Assembly (NCBI RefSeq): GCF_026965535.1
Contig: NZ_CP114039.1
Span: 8,973,461 to 9,037,460, forward strand
Direction of reading: 5' to 3'
From: Corallococcus sp. NCRR
GTDB lineage: Bacteria > Myxococcota > Myxococcia > Myxococcales > Myxococcaceae
DNA: 64,000 nt
Under the pieces are notes generated by a model that had not been told where the DNA came from, searched no databases, and was given only the letters and a program-made list of their open reading frames with translations. How positions within the stretch are numbered: the first letter of the stretch is position 1; every line of letters starts with the position of its first letter. The position numbers and the translations under genes are program-made. Below, piece after piece: positions 8,250-17,688 of the stretch.

Positions 8250-8888
8250 GTGGAACCCCTCGTCCAGCTCACCGAGCCCGCCCTGCCCCCGCCCCTCTTC
8301 CAGCGGCTGTCCCGCCGCGTGGGGGACCTGAAGGGGGAGCGCCTGCGTCACACGTACCAGACGACGTTCTGGTACGCCTTCGGGCCTCCGGAGAACGTGG
8401 TGGAGGAGGTCATCCACACGCTGCGGCCCCGGGTGACGAAGGGCTGGAAGATTTCTGGTGTGGAGTGGTGGCTGTCGCGGATGCGGGCCACGGACGTGCG
8501 GGTGGACTTCCACCAGGACCGGGACGAGCGGCTGGCGTTGGCCACGGGCAAGCTGGTGCACCCGGTGCGCTCGTCGGTGTTGTTCCTCAACCGGGTGCGG
8601 GGCGGCGCGCTGGCGGTGACGCGGGAGCTGCCGTGTGACGACAACCCGTCGCTCGCGCCGGAGCGGTTGGAGGACCTGACGCTGGTGGCGCCGCGCCCCA
8701 ACCGGCTGGTGGTGTTCGACGGGACGCTGACGCACGGGGTGCTGGACGCGAACAACCAGGTCCCGGACGGCAAGCTGCAGGGGCCTTCACGCGAGCGGCG
8801 CACGCTGGTGATGAACTGGTGGGGCCACCGTCCCACGGACGTGCCCCGGTGGAGCGAAACGCGCTTCTACCGGGCGCTGGCCAGCTGA
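8250..8888 (+). CDS. putative 2OG-Fe(II) oxygenase-like protein
   Basis: About 212 residues. The iron-binding facial triad of 2-oxoglutarate oxygenases seems present: HQD (H-x-D) in VDFHQDRDE and a distal His in GTLTHGV, with an Arg-rich RRTLVMNWW strand that could bind 2-oxoglutarate. The start is uncertain: GTG 8250 has AGGAGA 14-16 bp upstream, while ATG 8208 would add 14 residues. The 3' end overlaps the convergent DNA methyltransferase gene by 22 bp. Substrate is unknown; the family includes prolyl hydroxylases and small-molecule oxygenases. The call rests on motif spacing only. Confidence 0.55.
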   Translation: MEPLVQLTEPALPPPLFQRLSRRVGDLKGERLRHTYQTTFWYAFGPPENVVEEVIHTLRPRVTKGWKISGVEWWLSRMRATDVRVDFHQDRDERLALATGKLVHPVRSSVLFLNRVRGGALAVTRELPCDDNPSLAPERLEDLTLVAPRPNRLVVFDGTLTHGVLDANNQVPDGKLQGPSRERRTLVMNWWGHRPTDVPRWSETRFYRALAS

Positions 8889-9640
8889 CGGGCGGTCTCG
8901 CGCAGGCGGTGGGTGACGCGCTCGGCCCACTCGGGTTCGACCTCCATGCAGGCGGGGCGGCGGCCCAGGCGCAGGGCGGCGGAGGGCATGGAGCCGCTGC
9001 CGGCGAAGGGGTCCAGCACCGTCTCGCCGGGGCGGCTCCAGGTGCGGACCAGGGGCTCCAGCACGGAGAAGGGCTTGTGGTGCGGGTGGCCGCCCCACTG
9101 CGTGGCCTCGGCGTCATCGTCGTAGCCGCCGACGACGGCCCACACGGTGGGGGCGTCTCCGGGGGCGAGCTGCGGCGCGGGCGTGCGGGCGATGACGAGG
9201 GCGACCTCGTAGACGCGCAGCAGCTGCTCGTTGGCGTTCTTGTCGGTGGTGCGCTTGCCCCAGACGTATTCGCCGCGCAGGTGGGTGTAGCCCAGGCCGT
9301 GGGCGGCGGTGAGGATGGGCTCCTTGCCCAGCAGGTTGGTCCAGATGATGAGGGGCGCGTCGGGGGTGAGGTGCGCGGTGGCGCGGGTGAGCCAGGCCTC
9401 GGAGAAGACGCGGTAGTCGCGCACGGACTCGAAGCGCACGATGGGGTTGCGGTCGATCTTCTTGTTCGCGCGGGGGTCGCGCAGGTCCCCGCCCTTGCGG
9501 CGCCGGGTGAGCAGGCAATAGGGCGGGTCCGTGTGGAGCAGCGAGGCGCGGGTGTCGCCGAGGGCGGCCCGGTAGCCCTCGGGCTCGCGCGCGTCGGCGC
9601 GGACGCAGCGCAGGGATTCGGGCGTGAGGTCGGAGGTCAT
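8867..9640 (-). CDS. DNA N6-adenine or N4-cytosine methyltransferase, class beta
   Basis: The 257-residue enzyme has the catalytic motif DPPY at 38-41 and the S-adenosylmethionine-binding motif DPFAGSGS at 210-217, with a KPFSVLEPLVR stretch just before it. Having the catalytic motif first and the SAM motif last is the class-beta order. It would methylate an exocyclic amino group in DNA. No restriction endonuclease gene lies beside it, so it may be a solitary methyltransferase that marks the chromosome. ATG 9640 is the first start giving only family sequence; the longer upstream frame runs antisense through the toxin gene and is not real. Confidence 0.85.
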   Translation of the reverse strand: MTSDLTPESLRCVRADAREPEGYRAALGDTRASLLHTDPPYCLLTRRRKGGDLRDPRANKKIDRNPIVRFESVRDYRVFSEAWLTRATAHLTPDAPLIIWTNLLGKEPILTAAHGLGYTHLRGEYVWGKRTTDKNANEQLLRVYEVALVIARTPAPQLAPGDAPTVWAVVGGYDDDAEATQWGGHPHHKPFSVLEPLVRTWSRPGETVLDPFAGSGSMPSAALRLGRRPACMEVEPEWAERVTHRLRETARQLASAR

Positions 9641-9706
9641 CGTGTGGAGCCGCACCCTACCCGGCATGGGGACGGGGGCGGCGGGATTCTGGCACGCTCG
9701 GCGGCC

Positions 9707-10492
9707 ATGCGGGTTCGTCACATCGAGGCCGTGCTGGGCTGGCTGCTGCTCTGCGGGTGCCACTCCGCGGGCGGCGTCCCGGCGCGGCGGGAGTACCAGC
9801 AGACGCTGGATTCGGGCACGAACGCGTGCCGGCACAACCCCGCCTACTGCGCGGTCATGCCCGCGAGCGTTCGAACCACGGCACAAGCCGGTGCATCCGT
9901 GGCAGGGGCGCTGAAGGTCATGGATGCGGCGACCCAAAGCCGCCTGCATGACATCTTGAAGAAGTGCGCGACCCTGGCGGACCAGGAGGTGAACCTGCGG
10001 TTGCTCGACGGCAAGACGCCCACGGCGCAGCAGTGCGAGGAGCAGGTCGGGACGGATGCGGCGGGCAAACCCATCACCCGGGCCATGCAGTTGGGCCGGG
10101 AGAAGCACGAGGTGGCCCTCCGCTGCGTTCAGGAGCACCTGTCCGTTGAGCGGCCCGGTGGCTTCAGCCTGGAACAGCGGTACGGCTACGACATGAGGAC
10201 GGGAGCGCTCCGACTGATCACCCGCGCGGAAGCAGAAGCGTGGCTTCGGTCCGGACAGGCGGGCCAGCTTCTGGGCACGCTCATTCCGGACGTCGTCATC
10301 CATCTGGGAGATCCGCTTGCCCCCGAAGATGCGTTCGACTTCAAGTTTCCTTGCCCCATCAGTAACTCCGCGAGTTGGCGGCGCTATCCCCGCAACCATC
10401 CTTACGAGGGGAGGACACAAGGTCAGATGTATGAGCAGGCCTTGGGCATTCGTCCCTGGCTTGTCGTCCCCATCCTTGGAGCATCCCAGTGA
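9707..10492 (+). CDS. predicted lipoprotein toxin with restriction-nuclease-like C-terminus
   Basis: The 261-residue protein starts MRVRHIEAVLGWLLLCGCHS, a short lipoprotein signal with Cys16 or Cys18 as acylation site. The middle is helical and Cys-containing. The C-terminus has a PD-(D/E)xK-like arrangement: PDVVIHL (Asp195), then DAFDFK (Asp211, Lys213), then a Gln-rich helix start GRTQGQMY. This fits nuclease toxin domains of the restriction-endonuclease fold found in polymorphic toxins. The stop overlaps the start of the next gene by 4 bp, as expected for a toxin/immunity pair. Lipoprotein toxins exchanged between outer membranes (SitA) are known in Myxococcus; assignment to that system is inference. 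Codon use is looser than in flanking genes. Confidence 0.6.
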   Translation: MRVRHIEAVLGWLLLCGCHSAGGVPARREYQQTLDSGTNACRHNPAYCAVMPASVRTTAQAGASVAGALKVMDAATQSRLHDILKKCATLADQEVNLRLLDGKTPTAQQCEEQVGTDAAGKPITRAMQLGREKHEVALRCVQEHLSVERPGGFSLEQRYGYDMRTGALRLITRAEAEAWLRSGQAGQLLGTLIPDVVIHLGDPLAPEDAFDFKFPCPISNSASWRRYPRNHPYEGRTQGQMYEQALGIRPWLVVPILGASQ

Positions 10493-11394
10493 CTCGCTCT
10501 CATCCCCGCATCAGGATTCGCGCAGGGCACGGAGGCATGTTGCTCCGGGATGGCGTCAACATTGCCTTCTACTTGAGGCATTCGCACCAGGACATTACCC
10601 AGCGCATTGAACACGCCCTCCATGTGTTTCAGCAGGCCATCGCCCCGGCATCCCTGAGTTGGTATTGCGACTACGAAGGGGATTTCCACGAGCTCGACAG
10701 CACCGGGCGCGAGTTCCTCGAGCATGAATTCCATGCCCCCCACTTCGCCTATGTTCGACTGGCGGACCACGTCAACGGCGTGGGCGACTACAAATTCTTC
10801 TATAACGGCCAGTGGAGGGAGCAGCCTGATTCCCGTGACGCGGCACGGAGGTTGAGCACCGTCAGCTTCTGGCTCCCCACGGAGTTCCTGGAGGCGCAAG
10901 GGTCGCCTGTCGTCCACGAGCTGGCGCTGAAACTCTCAGCGGACCTGCCGTTTGCCTCCGGGCATGCGGGACTCGCATTCAATGGCCAGCTCGACCTCCT
11001 GGGTGTCGGCGACCTGGTTCATCGCGAACGCCTGCTCCATCCCGGAATGGATGTCCCGGATGAGTCCGCATCTCATTACCTGGGCCAATGCGTTCCCGGC
11101 GTCCATTGGATGAACTTCCTGGGTCCCCCGGTGCTCACGGAGCTGGGGGGCGTGGAGGCTCTTCGTGGACGGCTCAGGAGCCCTGGCACGACGGTGCAGT
11201 CGCTGCCCGGTGGGCGTGCGGTCATCACCCTGGGAAGTGAACCTGACGCGGGAGACGTGACGCAGAGCCCCGTGCTACCGGCCTACCGTGAGCTGGCCCG
11301 CGTCCTGGAGCCCTGGCTGTACTTCCAGGGCGACTCCCGCCGCTGGCGAGACACCGAAGCACAACGTCGATGGGAGCGCCGGTTCCTGGACTGA
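10489..11394 (+). CDS. DUF3396-type predicted immunity protein
   Basis: This 301-residue cytoplasmic protein starts at GTG 10489 inside the previous stop (GTGA), so the two are probably translated together. The sequence agrees with the DUF3396 'type VI immunity' family as I remember it: an early RDGVNIAFYLR segment, a central SWYCDYEGD motif, a Gly/His-rich HPGMDVPD region, VPGVHWMNFLGPPVL, and a C-terminal EPWLYF…RRWERRFLD. Proteins of this family sit after toxin genes and protect the producer. Position, coupling and family all suggest neutralisation of the toxin encoded just upstream. I have no direct evidence for the pairing. Confidence 0.65.
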   Translation: MTRSHPRIRIRAGHGGMLLRDGVNIAFYLRHSHQDITQRIEHALHVFQQAIAPASLSWYCDYEGDFHELDSTGREFLEHEFHAPHFAYVRLADHVNGVGDYKFFYNGQWREQPDSRDAARRLSTVSFWLPTEFLEAQGSPVVHELALKLSADLPFASGHAGLAFNGQLDLLGVGDLVHRERLLHPGMDVPDESASHYLGQCVPGVHWMNFLGPPVLTELGGVEALRGRLRSPGTTVQSLPGGRAVITLGSEPDAGDVTQSPVLPAYRELARVLEPWLYFQGDSRRWRDTEAQRRWERRFLD

Positions 11395-12439: not shown

Positions 12440-14314
12440 CTACCTGGGCTCGTAGTACACGTTGAGACGCTTGACCCCCACCACACCGTACAACTGGTTC
12501 GGGACCCACCGGGTCGTGGCGGTGTCCGGGGTGTAGCCCTGGTCGTTCACCGGGTGGCCAAATTGACCGTTCTCCTCGTCAATGTACTCCATGCAAATGG
12601 GGAAGACCCTCCCGTCAGGTAGGGTGGCCTCCGTGAACAGCAGTCGGGTGATCAGCGGATCGAAAATCGCGCGGCCCTTCACGATCGTCCCTATCGGCAA
12701 GGCACCGCGCCTCGCCGCCGCATTATGGACGATGCCCTGGATGGGCCCTTCACGGACCTCCCTCTCGAACCTCTCCGCCTCCTTCAGCCAGAGGCCGTGC
12801 CAGATTTTGAAGCCGGACTTCAACTCCACCATGGCCTCCTTGGCTCCCGCCGGGCACGGTTCGCTCTGATCCTGGCGGGTGTTGGCACCACCGCCCGCGC
12901 ATGACACGCCCACGCAGGCCGCTACGGCCGCTCCAGCGACCTTCCGCATGACACCGCCGTCCGCTCGCGGGAGTTTCACGGACGGGGTCGCAATCTCGGT
13001 GGGCGCGGGCGGAGTCGGCTCCGCCGCAGCGGAAACACCCGCATCCGGCGAAGACGCCACCGCGAGCACGGCGGCATCGGGAAGACTCGGGGCTGGTGTC
13101 ACGGACGAACTTCCTTTCTCAGACACAGGCGCTACGACAGGTGGAGGCCGGTCCGGCGTCAGTCGCGCCAGCCCGAAGATCAAGAAGCCCAGCAGGAGTA
13201 CTCCCAGACCGAGCACCGCCCCGTTGCGACGGCGCCGCTTCGGCTCGACGGCCTTCGCGGGTGAGGACGGCTCCGCGGGCGCTGACTCCCGGGCTTGCGC
13301 TGTCAGCACCGGAGCGCTCCCGGGGAACTTGGACAGCGATACGACACCCCGGTCCAACCCGGCTTCATCTGGGGCCGCTGGGACGTCCAGCGAGACCTTC
13401 CAGTCCGAGTGGCGCTTGTCCTTGGCCGCATCCCAGAGCGCCTGCAGCAGCGTCTCCGTCCCCGAGTAGCGATCCTCGGGGCGCTTGGAGAGCAGCCGCA
13501 TCGCGATGTCCGAGAGGCTGGAGGGGACCTTGGGGTTGATGTCCTTCGGCGCTCTCGGCACCACCGTTTCGATGGCGGGCAGCAACCGTTCGTAGGGCAG
13601 GCGTGGGTCGAAGGCGTAGCCGTCCGTCAGGGACTCGTAGAGCAGCGCGCCCAGCGCATACAGGTCGCCCGGGATGCCCGCATCGAAGTTCGCTCCGGAC
13701 TTCCAGGAGCCTTCGCGCAGGAAGGTCACGCACTCGGGCGGCAGCAGGTGCGGCGACGCGGGCGCGACACCCACGGTCAGCGTGGAGGCCCCCGGGATGC
13801 GCGCAGTGCCCAGGTCGATGAGGATGGGGCGCTCATCCAGGCGGCGGATCAGCAGGTTGTCCGCCTTGAGGTCGCGGTGGTGCACACCCCGCCGGTGGAG
13901 ATCCGCCACCACCCGCACGACCTCCGTGTAGACGGTCAGCAGGTGCGCGGCGGAGGGCTTCACCCGCCAGCGCCACTCGTGGAACGTCTCGCCGTCCACG
14001 AAGTCCGTGACGTGGAAGAGGTAGCCGTCCGGTGGCTCCGGCCAGCGATCCACGGCGTGCACGCGCGGCAGGTTGGGATGCGGCGCGCACGCGAGCAGCG
14101 CCGCCACCTCCCGCGCGAGCCGTCCGTTGACGTCCTCTTCATCGCTGGCGTGCTGGTTCGCCGGACGCAACGCGAGCTTCAGCGCGTAGACGTTCCCACC
14201 CCGCTCCACCTTGAACACCCGGCCGAAGCCTCCCGCGCCGAGCGTCCCGACGATCCGCCAGGGGCCGACACTGTGGCCGACTTCAAGCTGGTCCGGGTGG
14301 AGCGGCGTGGTCAT
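12440..14314 (-). CDS. membrane-anchored Ser/Thr protein kinase, eukaryotic type
   Basis: The 624-residue protein begins with a Hanks-type kinase domain (about 17-295): glycine loop GAGGFG (26-31), Lys46, catalytic HRDLKADN (146-153) and DLG (167-169) in place of DFG. A basic stretch RRRR then a single membrane helix (about 365-383) puts a Pro/Ala-rich linker and a folded C-terminal domain (about 480-624) outside the cytoplasm. At residue 456 a second hydrophobic run (MRKVAGAAVAACVGVSCAGG) looks like an embedded signal/lipoprotein leader. Together with the DUF2381 protein it would form a sensory or signalling pair. Input and targets are unknown. Confidence 0.88.
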   Translation of the reverse strand: MTTPLHPDQLEVGHSVGPWRIVGTLGAGGFGRVFKVERGGNVYALKLALRPANQHASDEEDVNGRLAREVAALLACAPHPNLPRVHAVDRWPEPPDGYLFHVTDFVDGETFHEWRWRVKPSAAHLLTVYTEVVRVVADLHRRGVHHRDLKADNLLIRRLDERPILIDLGTARIPGASTLTVGVAPASPHLLPPECVTFLREGSWKSGANFDAGIPGDLYALGALLYESLTDGYAFDPRLPYERLLPAIETVVPRAPKDINPKVPSSLSDIAMRLLSKRPEDRYSGTETLLQALWDAAKDKRHSDWKVSLDVPAAPDEAGLDRGVVSLSKFPGSAPVLTAQARESAPAEPSSPAKAVEPKRRRRNGAVLGLGVLLLGFLIFGLARLTPDRPPPVVAPVSEKGSSSVTPAPSLPDAAVLAVASSPDAGVSAAAEPTPPAPTEIATPSVKLPRADGGVMRKVAGAAVAACVGVSCAGGGANTRQDQSEPCPAGAKEAMVELKSGFKIWHGLWLKEAERFEREVREGPIQGIVHNAAARRGALPIGTIVKGRAIFDPLITRLLFTEATLPDGRVFPICMEYIDEENGQFGHPVNDQGYTPDTATTRWVPNQLYGVVGVKRLNVYYEPR

Positions 14315-14680
14315 GACCCTGGCTCAAGCCGTGACACAACCTGGGAGGTGGGGACGGCCATGCGGGTTTTCAGGACCGGCGAGGGCGACTTCCCTGCCAC
14401 ACCCCACCGCGGAGGTCGGATTCCCCGCAATCCGCGAGCGTGCCCGGCCGATGACGGCGCGGACCCACTTGGCGGAACCACCCAGGGAGCGGTGTTCAAT
14501 GCGGACAACCTCCGGGGTTGACCCTATCTGGCCCTGCGGGGCTGTCACGTTTTTTCGTGACGCAGCAGGGGGGTCGACCCTGAACAGGCGTCCAACCCGC
14601 CAGGCAGCCTGAGGTTCGTGAAACAGGTTTCAGCCCGTCCGGATGTGACGGCCCCCTGTCTGGGATTGCGCGGGGGCCGG
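14315..14680. other. intergenic region upstream of the kinase gene
   Basis: These 366 bp lie between the kinase start and the TfuA stop and must hold the kinase promoter. I find no convincing gene: the short frames present have no ribosome site and a composition like antisense reading. A 6-bp perfect inverted repeat with a T6 loop (GTCACG at 14544-14549, CGTGAC at 14556-14561) is the only notable motif and could be an operator or a weak hairpin. Confidence 0.5.
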
Positions 14681-15940
14681 CTATTCGCCTTCGTCGGACG
14701 CGTCGTCCGCCTCCGCCAGCGCTCGGGCAGCCTGCTCCCACTGGCCTCCCAGTCGCGCCTCGGAAGCCAGGGCTTCGTCCCAGGAGGGACCATCCGGCAG
14801 CAGGCGCGACGCGTGCTTCAAGGCCAGGCGCTCCAGCGCGCGGGCTTCGCACAAGCGGCGAAGCTCCAGCGCGTCGAGCCCGTTCGCGGCGAGGAAGGCC
14901 TCACGGCGCGAGGCACGAACGTTCCGCTCGTTCCACCACGCGGCCTCCTCCGCGGCGATCTCCTCCTCGGTCGCGTCGAGCCCCAGCGAACGCGCCCAGC
15001 CCGCGAGCAACGCCCGCCGCAGGCCCGCCTCCGCCCAGGACTCCGCGTCGGGCGCGCCGCGCAGCAGTTCCATCACGCGCCCGGAGTCCACGGCGCGCGA
15101 GCCCACGCGCGTCACGTCCTCCATCAGGCGCCGGCGCCGCACCAGCGACGAAGGATTGCGCCGCGCTCCAGGTTGCATCGGAGGCGCACGGCGCACGAAC
15201 TCCGAGCCCGCGCGCACGCACTCGATGGCGTCCAGCCGCTTGAGGTCCTCCACGCCGCCCGCGAACCAGGCGTCCCAGGCGTCACGCACGGACCGGGTCC
15301 ACGCGGGCTCCACGGCCTCGCGGATCCGGGGCCAGGTGCGCTCCTGGTAGAAGATGCCCGAGGCCGCGTCCACCAGGGCCTGTGCCCCCGAACGGCCCAA
15401 TACGCGCGCCTTCCGCGCCAGCTCCGCCGCGTGCCGCACGTTCACCAGGGGAACGGTGAGCGGACGCCAACCGTGTTCGGCGTCCGCGTGCAGCAGCGCC
15501 ACTTCCGAGTCGTCCACCGCCACGCCGTCGCGATACCAGCCGAAGATGCGGCCCACGCCGACCACGCCGTGTTCGGACAGCTCCGAGGCCCGCAGCGCGC
15601 CCATGCTCCCGCCGCCGAAGACGGCTACACCGGCCTCCAGCGCCGCGAGCAGCTCGTGATGCCACACGGACGGCTGCGCCTCGAAGACGCCGTCCACCAG
15701 CACCAGCGCGCGGGGCTTGAGCGACAGCGCCCGCCAGACGTCTCCCTGCCGCGCGGGAGGCAACACCGTGCACGGCCCGATCCGCCGCGCCTCTGCCGCG
15801 GGCAACGAAGGCCCCAGGAACACCACCAGGTCGTCCGGCCGGCGCTTCACGCGGCTTCCATCACGAACAGGCCCGCCCGCCGCATCCGCGACGCCAGCAA
15901 CCACGGCCCCTGAACCCTTCACACCGGACCGCCGCTTCAC
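14681..15940 (-). CDS. TfuA-like protein (YcaO partner)
   Basis: The 419-residue protein contains the TfuA core: VVFLGPSLP, then RPPARQGD-like PPARQGDV, LVDGVFEAQPSVWHHELLAAL, and the strongly typical GGGSMGALRASEL. In characterised cases TfuA recruits sulfur and works with YcaO to turn peptide amides into thioamides (thioviridamide-type peptides, methyl-coenzyme M reductase thioglycine). The GTG start at 15940 overlaps the YcaO stop by 4 bp with GGAG upstream, so the pair is translationally coupled; GTG 15850 would begin right before the conserved domain. The C-terminal 170 residues are helical and Ala/Glu-rich, longer than in minimal TfuA proteins. Confidence 0.85.
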   Translation of the reverse strand: MKRRSGVKGSGAVVAGVADAAGGPVRDGSRVKRRPDDLVVFLGPSLPAAEARRIGPCTVLPPARQGDVWRALSLKPRALVLVDGVFEAQPSVWHHELLAALEAGVAVFGGGSMGALRASELSEHGVVGVGRIFGWYRDGVAVDDSEVALLHADAEHGWRPLTVPLVNVRHAAELARKARVLGRSGAQALVDAASGIFYQERTWPRIREAVEPAWTRSVRDAWDAWFAGGVEDLKRLDAIECVRAGSEFVRRAPPMQPGARRNPSSLVRRRRLMEDVTRVGSRAVDSGRVMELLRGAPDAESWAEAGLRRALLAGWARSLGLDATEEEIAAEEAAWWNERNVRASRREAFLAANGLDALELRRLCEARALERLALKHASRLLPDGPSWDEALASEARLGGQWEQAARALAEADDASDEGE

Positions 15941-17091
15941 AGGAGCTCCGAGACGCGCATGCCCGGCACCACGACCTTCCACACGTGCAACCCGGGCACC
16001 GGTGCATCCAGCGCCACGCCTGCCACCTGCGTGAACCCCGCGCCGTCCAGCAGCGACAACACCGTGCGCACCTTCGCCGCCGCGGTCTTCGCGCGCCGGT
16101 CCAGCGCGTCCGGCATCGCGTCCACTCCGCGACGGGGTCTCACTTCGGACAGCGCCTGCGCGAACCCCAGCGCCGCATCACGGTCCGCCGCCGCCACGTC
16201 CTCACGGGCTCCGTGGATGTCCGTAAGCCTCGATTGCGCCGCTTCCAGCAAGGCCTTCAGCAACGCCTCATCCCGGTCCAGCGCGCACGCGTAGCCGGCC
16301 GTGAGCGGCACCGGCCCTTCGTCCGCGTCCACCAGCACCGCCGCCGCCACGGGCAGCCCCACCCTCCCCTTCGTCCGGGGCGCGGGCGTCACATCGAAGA
16401 GGTAGGCCCGAAACCCCTGGGCCTTCAGCGCGTCCCTCAGCGCCGCCGTGCGCGGGGCCCCGTCCTCCAGGTCCTCCGGCCGCAGCATCCGCCCCACCAC
16501 GCCCTCCTCCGACCAGCCCTCCGGCAGGGCCCGCGACAACTGGTCACGCTCCGTGGCCTCCAGCAGCGCGTGCAGCAGCGCCGGGTCCGACTCCGGATGC
16601 GCACCGGAGCCATTCGTCGTCCACGCCACCGACACCGGCCCCAGCGCCACCGTCCCGGAAGGCGGGCAGTACACCCCCTGCGCCGGCACCCAGACCCGCT
16701 CGTCCCCGACCAGCGTCCGGGCCTCGCACCACGCCAGCCGCACCGCCGGCCCCGCGAGCCTTGGCGCCACCACCGCGCCCGCCGACCCGAGCGACTCCAC
16801 GCCCCAGACGGTGTCGCCCGCCCTCTCCAACTCCGCCTGGGAGCCCCAGCGCAGCCGCTCCGGCCGCACCGTCTCCGCCGCCCACAGCTCCGCGGTCTCG
16901 AAGAGCGCGCCCCGGGCCGCGGCCTCGAACGTCAGCCCCTTGCCATTACACACCTGGAGCACGTGTCCGCCCGGACGCACCGCGCAGGCGACCTCCACGC
17001 CGGTGCGGTCCAGGCCGGTGACCCGGGCGACCCGGGTCACTCCCAGGCCCCGGGCCAGGGCATCGAGGAAGGCGGGGGAGATGGATTCCAT
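15937..17091 (-). CDS. YcaO family ATP-dependent cyclodehydratase/thioamidase
   Basis: The 384-residue enzyme shows the YcaO glutamate/arginine clusters that bind ATP: ALFETAELWAAE (about 65-76), LLEATERDQLSR (about 185-196) and LLEAAQSRLTDI (about 275-286). YcaO proteins phosphorylate a backbone amide oxygen; with TfuA next door the expected product is a thioamide. The start at ATG 17091 gives the normal family N-terminus; GTG 17106 is an alternative. It is first in a two-gene operon with the TfuA gene and divergent from a peroxiredoxin 120 bp away. No precursor peptide gene is visible beside it, so the substrate may be a larger or distant protein. Confidence 0.87.
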   Translation of the reverse strand: MESISPAFLDALARGLGVTRVARVTGLDRTGVEVACAVRPGGHVLQVCNGKGLTFEAAARGALFETAELWAAETVRPERLRWGSQAELERAGDTVWGVESLGSAGAVVAPRLAGPAVRLAWCEARTLVGDERVWVPAQGVYCPPSGTVALGPVSVAWTTNGSGAHPESDPALLHALLEATERDQLSRALPEGWSEEGVVGRMLRPEDLEDGAPRTAALRDALKAQGFRAYLFDVTPAPRTKGRVGLPVAAAVLVDADEGPVPLTAGYACALDRDEALLKALLEAAQSRLTDIHGAREDVAAADRDAALGFAQALSEVRPRRGVDAMPDALDRRAKTAAAKVRTVLSLLDGAGFTQVAGVALDAPVPGLHVWKVVVPGMRVSELL

Positions 17092-17211
17092 CAAGGCAGG
17101 CGACACGGAGGGGCACCTTAGCGGACACCCGGCGCGGCGCGGCATGGGATGACGGGGAAAACGTGGTAGGGGAAGGGCAGCCCCGCCGTCTCGGGATGGA
17201 GCGCGCATCGA

Positions 17212-17688
17212 ATGATTGCCGTCGGAGAACTCGCACCGGACTTCGCAGCGACCGGCTGCCACGGGCAGACCGTTCGATTGTCGGAGCTGCGAGGCCGGCG
17301 CGTCGTGCTCTTCTTCTTCCCCCGCGCCTTCACCGTGGGGTGCACCATCGAGAACCGCGCCTTCAGGGACAACCACGAGCGGATCCGCTCGCTGGGCGCG
17401 GAGCTTGTCGGCGTCTCCGTGGACACGCTCACCACCCAGTGCGACTTCGCTGAACAGGAGGGCATCCACTTCGCCCTCCTGGGAGACGACGAGCGGCGCA
17501 TCAGCCGCGCCTGGGGCGTGCTGTGGCCGGTCCTCAACATCGACCGGCGCGTCACCTTCATCATCGGCGCGGACGGCGTCGTCGAACACGTCATCCACCA
17601 CGAGGTGCGCGTCTACCGCCACCTGGACGACGTGCTCAAATACCTCCAGGCCCACCCCACCCCGGGCGGCGACACCGCCTCCGCCTGA
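17212..17688 (+). CDS. peroxiredoxin, AhpC/TSA (BCP-like)
   Basis: The 158-residue protein has the peroxiredoxin active-site motif P37-x-x-x-T41-x-x-C44 (PRAFTVGC), with Cys44 as peroxidatic cysteine. No cysteine stands five residues later, unlike classic BCP, so the resolving partner is either another Cys (Cys16 or the one in TTQCDF) or an external thiol. It reduces hydrogen peroxide and organic peroxides in the cytoplasm. It is transcribed away from the YcaO operon and may share a short divergent promoter region with it. Confidence 0.9.
   Translation: MIAVGELAPDFAATGCHGQTVRLSELRGRRVVLFFFPRAFTVGCTIENRAFRDNHERIRSLGAELVGVSVDTLTTQCDFAEQEGIHFALLGDDERRISRAWGVLWPVLNIDRRVTFIIGADGVVEHVIHHEVRVYRHLDDVLKYLQAHPTPGGDTASA

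Follow-up and report, generated by a model that had tools for sequence, protein, structure and literature searches.

In the 64,000-nucleotide stretch of Corallococcus sp. NCRR DNA analysed here (the window), a YcaO gene and a TfuA gene overlap by four base pairs and form a pair that, we propose, is probably a backbone-thioamidating enzyme that works in trans, on a protein whose gene lies elsewhere in the genome. A protein substrate reached in trans is favored because the pair is found across the order Myxococcales, its YcaO falls in a clade of its own, both genes are under purifying selection and no linked precursor was found. The original prediction had raised a housekeeping protein as one possible substrate; the first three of these properties favor that suggestion, short of demonstrating it. 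Together with a gene neighborhood kept through much of the Myxococcaceae, they also make the pair appear, at the sequence level, unlike a sporadic peptide cluster. Any named target is a guess, and the best-linked candidate is a SUI1-domain (eIF1/YciH-like) protein.

Both genes lie on the minus strand. The YcaO gene (15937..17091) encodes 384 residues, predicted to be the ATP-dependent backbone-activating enzyme, which match the entire Pfam PF02624 profile (E 9.3e-55, positions 1-325 of 325) and TIGR00702 above that model's cut-off (98.7 bits). The TfuA gene (14681..15940) encodes 419 residues, predicted to be the sulfide-delivering partner, which likewise cover the whole of PF07812 (E 1.2e-40, positions 1-119 of 119); in a sequence search of the PDB they match TfuA of Methanosarcina acetivorans (6xp8, E 5.8e-33), and a second row at E 0.73 was set aside as chance. 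The YcaO stop and the TfuA start share the bases GTGA (15937..15940, minus strand), from which we infer translational coupling. The outer coordinates of the original prediction (14681-17091) are exact, the four-base overlap it described is this GTGA, and both of the families it named are matched in Pfam.

In NCBIfam, the two proteins score best against the models for McrA-glycine thioamidation, TIGR03266 (YcaO) and NF033432 (TfuA), and the sole PDB sequence match of the window YcaO at E 0.001 is MJ1094 (6pe3/6peu). The methanogen system that makes McrA thioglycine is thus the same gene pair and gives the best matches in both databases; it too has no precursor gene and acts on a protein in trans, as the Corallococcus pair probably does. 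The two systems differ in that the Corallococcus proteins miss both curated cut-offs (109.2 of 365 bits for TIGR03266, 173.3 of 235.2 bits for NF033432), that McrA (PF02745) has zero matches in the genome, with a control search positive in two methanogens, and that the Corallococcus TfuA is longer by a C-terminal extension of some 165 residues. Because both scores fall under the family cut-offs and McrA is absent from the genome, the pair is, judged by sequence, TfuA-type but outside the McrA equivalog.

The window YcaO ends in VPGMRVSELL and lacks the PxPxP tail, a C-terminus that is a feature of azoline-forming YcaOs; an (S/T)ELL ending is found in 21 of the 22 rows of our YcaO alignment A2, and the remaining row (L065) crosses stretches of N. 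Its ERD, AQSR and HG.R.D motifs, which we take to belong to the conserved ATP/Mg site, align with those of MJ1094 and are invariant or nearly so in the same alignment. With an adjacent TfuA, no PxPxP tail and conserved motifs, the protein is predicted to belong with the TfuA-associated, thioamide-forming YcaOs. The whole genome, a single contig of 9.79 Mb, holds three YcaO matches, one TfuA match (at E 0.01) and three ThiS-family matches. The second YcaO (L001, G000:C1:7718930-7719892) is a long protein whose last residues are NPVPFYF; a radical-SAM-like gene lies right behind it and, judged by eye, the protein looks like an azoline-forming synthetase in an azoline cluster of the ribosomally synthesized and post-translationally modified peptide (RiPP) type. 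The third (L002, G000:C1:2273387-2274439) is of a different subfamily; by eye it reads as a stand-alone protein, with TIM-barrel and metallo-beta-lactamase-like neighbors.

We predict the chemistry of the pair by analogy with its families. According to PMC5589413 and PMC13063428, YcaO enzymes use ATP on backbone amides, with sulfide supplied by ThiS homologues together with TfuA. YcaO would bind ATP and activate a backbone amide oxygen of the target protein; TfuA would free sulfide from a ThiS-like thiocarboxylate carrier and hand it on, converting the amide to a thioamide; and TfuA's helical C-terminal extension may assist in holding the target. The target gene would lie elsewhere in the genome, with the pair acting in trans as for McrA and uL16, and the pair would represent an old protein-directed enzyme of the order. 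The same papers provide protein precedents in the thioamidation of McrA (PMC5589413) and of uL16 (PMC13063428), the latter presented as the second protein thioamidated by a YcaO after methyl-coenzyme M reductase (MCR), with more expected.

TfuA was found in 109 of the 195 genomes of the phylum. The core form, which we assigned by identity and profile score, is present in 79 of 96 genomes of the Myxococcaceae (f1, which includes Citreicoccus and Archangium), in 7 of 12 of a further family (f2) and in 15 of 24 of the family that includes Anaeromyxobacter, the Anaeromyxobacteraceae (f3); six genomes with paralogue-class TfuAs only (G119, G128, G130, G131, G192 and G194) were left out of the core count, and the RiPP-type label of the paralogues is presumed. 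Among the matches listed for the core YcaO profile, intact Myxococcaceae copies score up to 638 bits and paralogues below 200, with fragments and divergent copies between; six divergent, low-scoring f1 YcaO copies each resemble the core (41-54% identity) more closely than the paralogues. Contig ends account for some of the apparent absences, as in G037 and G038, where YcaO lies at the end of a contig. Both genes, mostly with the identical four-base overlap, recur across the order, and the pair is therefore not a chance find. The paralogues are patchy in the order, the core pair much less so.

In a maximum-likelihood YcaO tree, read with a midpoint root and long branches, the 60 distinct core rows group together and 30 of the 32 paralogue rows fall apart from them. 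The two exceptions are L108, a case of mislabelling by the threshold, and the second YcaO of the genome itself, whose branch is very long. A kinase gene and a peroxiredoxin/sigma-factor block flank the pair in Corallococcus, Citreicoccus, Pyxidicoccus and part of Myxococcus; some Myxococcus loci keep one flank only or no longer have the peroxiredoxin, and in Archangium just the peroxiredoxin/sigma side remains. In Myxococcus xanthus AM003 (L055:6064-6206), the peroxiredoxin beside YcaO is reduced to short matching fragments. The neighbors are different in f2 and f3, but the coupling of YcaO to TfuA is retained, and this constancy of the pair against a background of changing neighbors counts in favor of the protein-directed reading. 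Outside the phylum, TfuA was found in two genomes of a sample of relatives in which 384 genomes were searched. A record labelled Comamonas sp. KCTC 72670 (L052) holds the pair with Myxococcus-like synteny and falls inside Myxococcus in the YcaO tree; this record is probably mislabelled or contaminated.

Ratios of nonsynonymous to synonymous substitution rates (dN/dS), from five Corallococcus comparisons, are 0.15-0.26 for YcaO and 0.14-0.22 for TfuA, with 0.12-0.21 and 0.09-0.19 for the two TfuA domains taken separately. By these sequence comparisons the pair is under purifying selection; its neighbors give 0.31-0.42 (kinase) and 0.06-0.18 (peroxiredoxin).

The original prediction had described the pair as stand-alone and without a precursor, and this description holds in the eight neighbors, in deeper loci and in a clustering, of limited power, of open reading frames (ORFs) around core loci. 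We clustered ORFs of 15-130 residues lying up to 1.5 kb from 75 core loci, among which some genomes are represented twice because two routes led to them, and from 33 paralogue loci. No precursor-like ORF family emerged around the core loci; since the same method recovered no clear precursor around the paralogue loci either, this negative is moderate. Of the best core clusters, a single one was intergenic, in the TfuA-kinase gap; the others came from ORFs that overlap the kinase gene or the peroxiredoxin gene. The ORFs of the gap do not look coding. We rejected a 74-residue ORF in the TfuA-kinase gap as a precursor: it is intact in 7 of 9 Corallococcus loci, with a stop in L041 and L098, its changes are by eye mostly non-synonymous, and it sits on a promoter-like stretch of DNA, itself conserved and bearing a CAACC...GGTTG palindrome, which explains the cluster better. 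On the other side, the 120 bp that separate YcaO from the peroxiredoxin gene lack any ORF of at least 12 codons. The eight neighbors scanned include no RiPP exporter or leader protease, in keeping with the earlier statement that no export or protease gene accompanies the pair; peptidase genes (M20, M3-like) near some deep orthologues are divergent or family-specific.

The architecture of TfuA was read from an AlphaFold2 model (mean predicted local distance difference test score, pLDDT, 85.4). Residues 36-252 (15185..15835, minus strand) form a catalytic-type domain with the fold of M. acetivorans TfuA, superposing on 6xp8 with Z 27.3 and a root-mean-square deviation (rmsd) of 1.9 over 215 aligned residues. 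The extension, folded alone as residues 250-419, reaches a mean pLDDT of 91.2, and its residues 296-383 (14792..15055, minus strand) resemble the helical chaperone domain of SurA/PrsA in a structure search. By title, 14 of the top 15 rows are SurA, PrsA or peptidyl-prolyl isomerase (PPIase) chaperone entries, and the remaining one, a YrvJ-YacD model (Z 4.5), is presumably also of this kind. The best match has Z 7.7 and rmsd 3.6 over 72 residues; PrsA entries range from Z 7.7 to 5.7 and SurA entries from 6.5 to 4.0, values below 8 that can reflect a common arrangement, and other rows, the YrvJ-YacD model apart, stay at or below Z 3.6. Foldseek gave a best E of 0.2, and nothing in Pfam scored over cut-off. 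The extension is thus predicted to resemble SurA/PrsA chaperone domains, at weak Z.

Several observations weigh against a conserved protein-directed enzyme. Several members of the order lack the pair, among them four genomes of one genus (g19, taken to be Myxococcus; G119, G128, G130 and G131, each in 1-2 contigs) in which the kinase and peroxiredoxin genes stand about 0.45 kb apart and searches of the surrounding 15 kb for YcaO and TfuA give nothing better than E 0.5. Given these four genomes, the pair is dispensable; M. acetivorans also survives loss of its YcaO-TfuA pair, according to PMC5589413. An hhalign comparison finds the extension homologous to the one in the long paralogue TfuAs (probability 97, E 1.1e-10), and two orthologues of genus g35 (L066 and L072) lack it, so it is neither specific to the core clade nor essential. 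Charge complementarity of the kind seen with E. coli YcaO was rejected because isoelectric points (pI) vary widely: the window YcaO has pI 5.4, and full-length orthologues range from 5.4 to 11.4 for YcaO and from 5.4 to 11.8 for TfuA. Vertical inheritance, as read from the sequences, depends on synteny and the look of one gene tree, and order-wide conservation would also fit a conserved small metabolite whose precursor is encoded elsewhere.

Most studied bacterial YcaO-TfuA pairs are RiPP enzymes, and this general background supports the strongest alternative: that the pair serves, as a conserved biosynthetic module, to make a RiPP or another thioamide metabolite from a precursor encoded elsewhere in the genome. 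The known thioamidated-RiPP systems (the thioviridamide group, thiovarsolins) use the same enzyme pair, and the presumed RiPP-type paralogues of the same order share the long TfuA architecture. In the survey of Malit et al. (PMC8120280), moreover, the genera listed for the dominant TfuA gene cluster families of Proteobacteria include Corallococcus, so clusters of this sort had already been counted; the available portion of that survey reports no product for them. Known thioamidated-RiPP pairs have an adjacent precursor, whereas here no linked precursor was found around the 75 core loci and no protease or exporter among the eight neighbors, and the separate clade and purifying selection differ from the rapid divergence of RiPP YcaOs described in PMC13063428. 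We regard a metabolite role as possible but clearly less probable than modification of a protein in trans.

If the pair does modify a protein in trans, one candidate substrate is suggested by gene order. In the Anaeromyxobacteraceae, a gene of 125-132 codons lies right behind TfuA on the same strand and encodes a SUI1 protein (PF01253, E 3.5e-12 and 2.4e-13 in two members). The original prediction had looked to relatives for a precursor gene at a conserved distance; a gene so placed exists in this family, but SUI1 is not a RiPP precursor. In this hypothesis, which we consider doubtful, the thioamide would lie in a glycine-rich loop of SUI1, GRGGK or LGCGG, and would tune start-site selection. 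SUI1 directly follows TfuA in 9 of the 13 Anaeromyxobacteraceae genomes that have both (G031, G032, G033, G035, G036, G039, G040, G042 and G043, with G039 inferred across a break between two contigs) and is unlinked in G041, G048, G053 and G054. The called genes overlap in six loci, by 4, 4, 4, 1, 73 and 76 bp, and in a seventh (L073) the SUI1 start is called late. Since linked and unlinked genomes intermingle in the YcaO tree, whose forks here are weak, the linkage may be old in the family.

SUI1 also accompanies core TfuA more broadly, and uL16 sets a precedent for a thioamidated component of translation. SUI1 occurs in 136 of the 195 genomes of the phylum and in 99 of the 103 with core TfuA, the other four being drafts of 180-960 contigs; a Fisher test (99, 4, 37, 55) gives p 7e-19, which, given the relatedness of the genomes, we do not count as evidence. 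No variation occurs in the GCGG loop of 67 SUI1s from core-positive genomes, a subset of those genomes, whereas among 33 from other genomes the cysteine is kept in 27 and the last glycine in 26 (100 of 102 SUI1 loci compared, two being without a match). Both the co-occurrence and the loop contrast are confounded by shared ancestry.

Other observations argue against SUI1. Its linkage to the pair is confined to one family: none of the 72 other pair loci (L035-L072, L079 and L081-L113, with flanks of up to 9 kb) holds SUI1, and different genes lie close behind TfuA elsewhere, an Exo_endo_phos nuclease in L111 (similarly L067, L112 and L113) and a TrkA-N protein in L062 (similarly L088). Within the Anaeromyxobacteraceae, divergent M20-peptidase and phosphorylase genes are also conserved neighbors, so adjacency need not mean function. 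SUI1 is retained in most pair-less relatives, as seen in 20 f1-f3 genomes without a core TfuA match (in two of them, G068 and G038, a core YcaO lies close to the end of a contig), and both of its loops are unchanged in the four pair-less Myxococcus genomes. Because of the single-family linkage, the other genes behind TfuA and the unchanged SUI1 in these four genomes, we rank SUI1 as the best-linked candidate and not as the probable substrate. In the Myxococcaceae SUI1 is encoded elsewhere, in the window's own genome at G000:C1:704308-704511, and a VKOR-DsbA gene adjoins it in 55 of 106 SUI1 loci examined, which are partly redundant and have short flanks. Outside the phylum, a Corallococcus SUI1 query, which could miss a diverged SUI1, found none near TfuA in 14.0 and 6.4 kb of the two genomes. 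Some f1 genomes (G062, G095, G091, G061 and G138; L199-L203) encode a second, diverged SUI1 with altered GRGGK and GCGG loops.

A thioamidated SUI1/eIF1-like factor would join McrA and uL16 as the third kind of protein modified by a YcaO, in this case by a dedicated YcaO-TfuA with a chaperone-like client-binding domain, a proposal to which we assign a low probability; if SUI1 is the target, thioamides would be a recurrent means of tuning the translation machinery. In the literature we searched, from which subscription journals were mostly missing, no paper pairs YcaO with SUI1 or YciH with thioamides; papers on thioamides, initiation factors and YcaO concern, by title, only ribosome structure, translation-targeting RiPPs and chemical azole installation, those naming TfuA and SurA are by title unrelated, and none on TfuA in myxobacteria or YcaO in Myxococcus treats this pair, as judged by titles and the starts of abstracts. 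The question of what else is thioamidated becomes directly testable with a precursor-less pair that spans the order, occurs in tractable bacteria, is naturally absent from some members of a single genus and has one named candidate substrate.

The E. coli YcaO, which modifies uL16 at Met82, likewise lies outside RiPP clusters, evolves slowly and acts on a structured protein; it differs in its tetratricopeptide repeat (TPR) domain, its pI of 4.4 and the lack of a TfuA in E. coli (PMC13063428), and it is not among the PDB sequence matches of the window YcaO. That uL16 is the substrate here as well is highly improbable: the genome's uL16 retains a target-like loop (...ETRMGTGKGG...) and none of its three YcaOs was recognised, by eye and not by a family model, as the E. 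coli kind, but uL16 is universal and its loop says little, uL16-modifying YcaOs are described in PMC13063428 as having low pI and no nearby TfuA, whereas here TfuA overlaps YcaO and neither the window YcaO nor its orthologues reach the acidic pI of about 4.4, and MJ1094 is the only solved structure that the window YcaO matches at E 0.001.

The eight neighbors comprise, on one flank, a serine/threonine kinase, a DUF2381 protein, a TsiV-type immunity protein and one protein without a family, and on the other a peroxiredoxin, an extracytoplasmic function (ECF) sigma factor, a zf-HC2 protein and one protein without a family. The kinase (12440..14314, minus strand), a syntenic neighbor with a promoter-like element of its own, and the peroxiredoxin (17212..17688, plus strand), a divergent syntenic neighbor in the Myxococcaceae, are both probably outside the system. 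The element upstream of the kinase (14506-14548, minus strand) consists of GTGACA, 16 bases, TAGGGT and then a CAACC-N5-GGTTG palindrome, and is strongly conserved across Corallococcus, Myxococcus, Pyxidicoccus and Citreicoccus; from its sequence we read it as a putative kinase promoter with an operator-like palindrome. A consensus promoter scan of 14200-17400 reported no promoter, this element included. Rfam gave a single match, at E 0.3 and under the gathering score, and the predicted RNA folding of 14315-14520 is unremarkable (z -1.22). Farther along this flank, at 8819-11394 on the plus strand, a gene for a 557-residue protein without a Pfam match overlaps by 4 bp the TsiV-type (VRR-NUC) type VI immunity gene behind it, and the two are possibly an effector-immunity pair.

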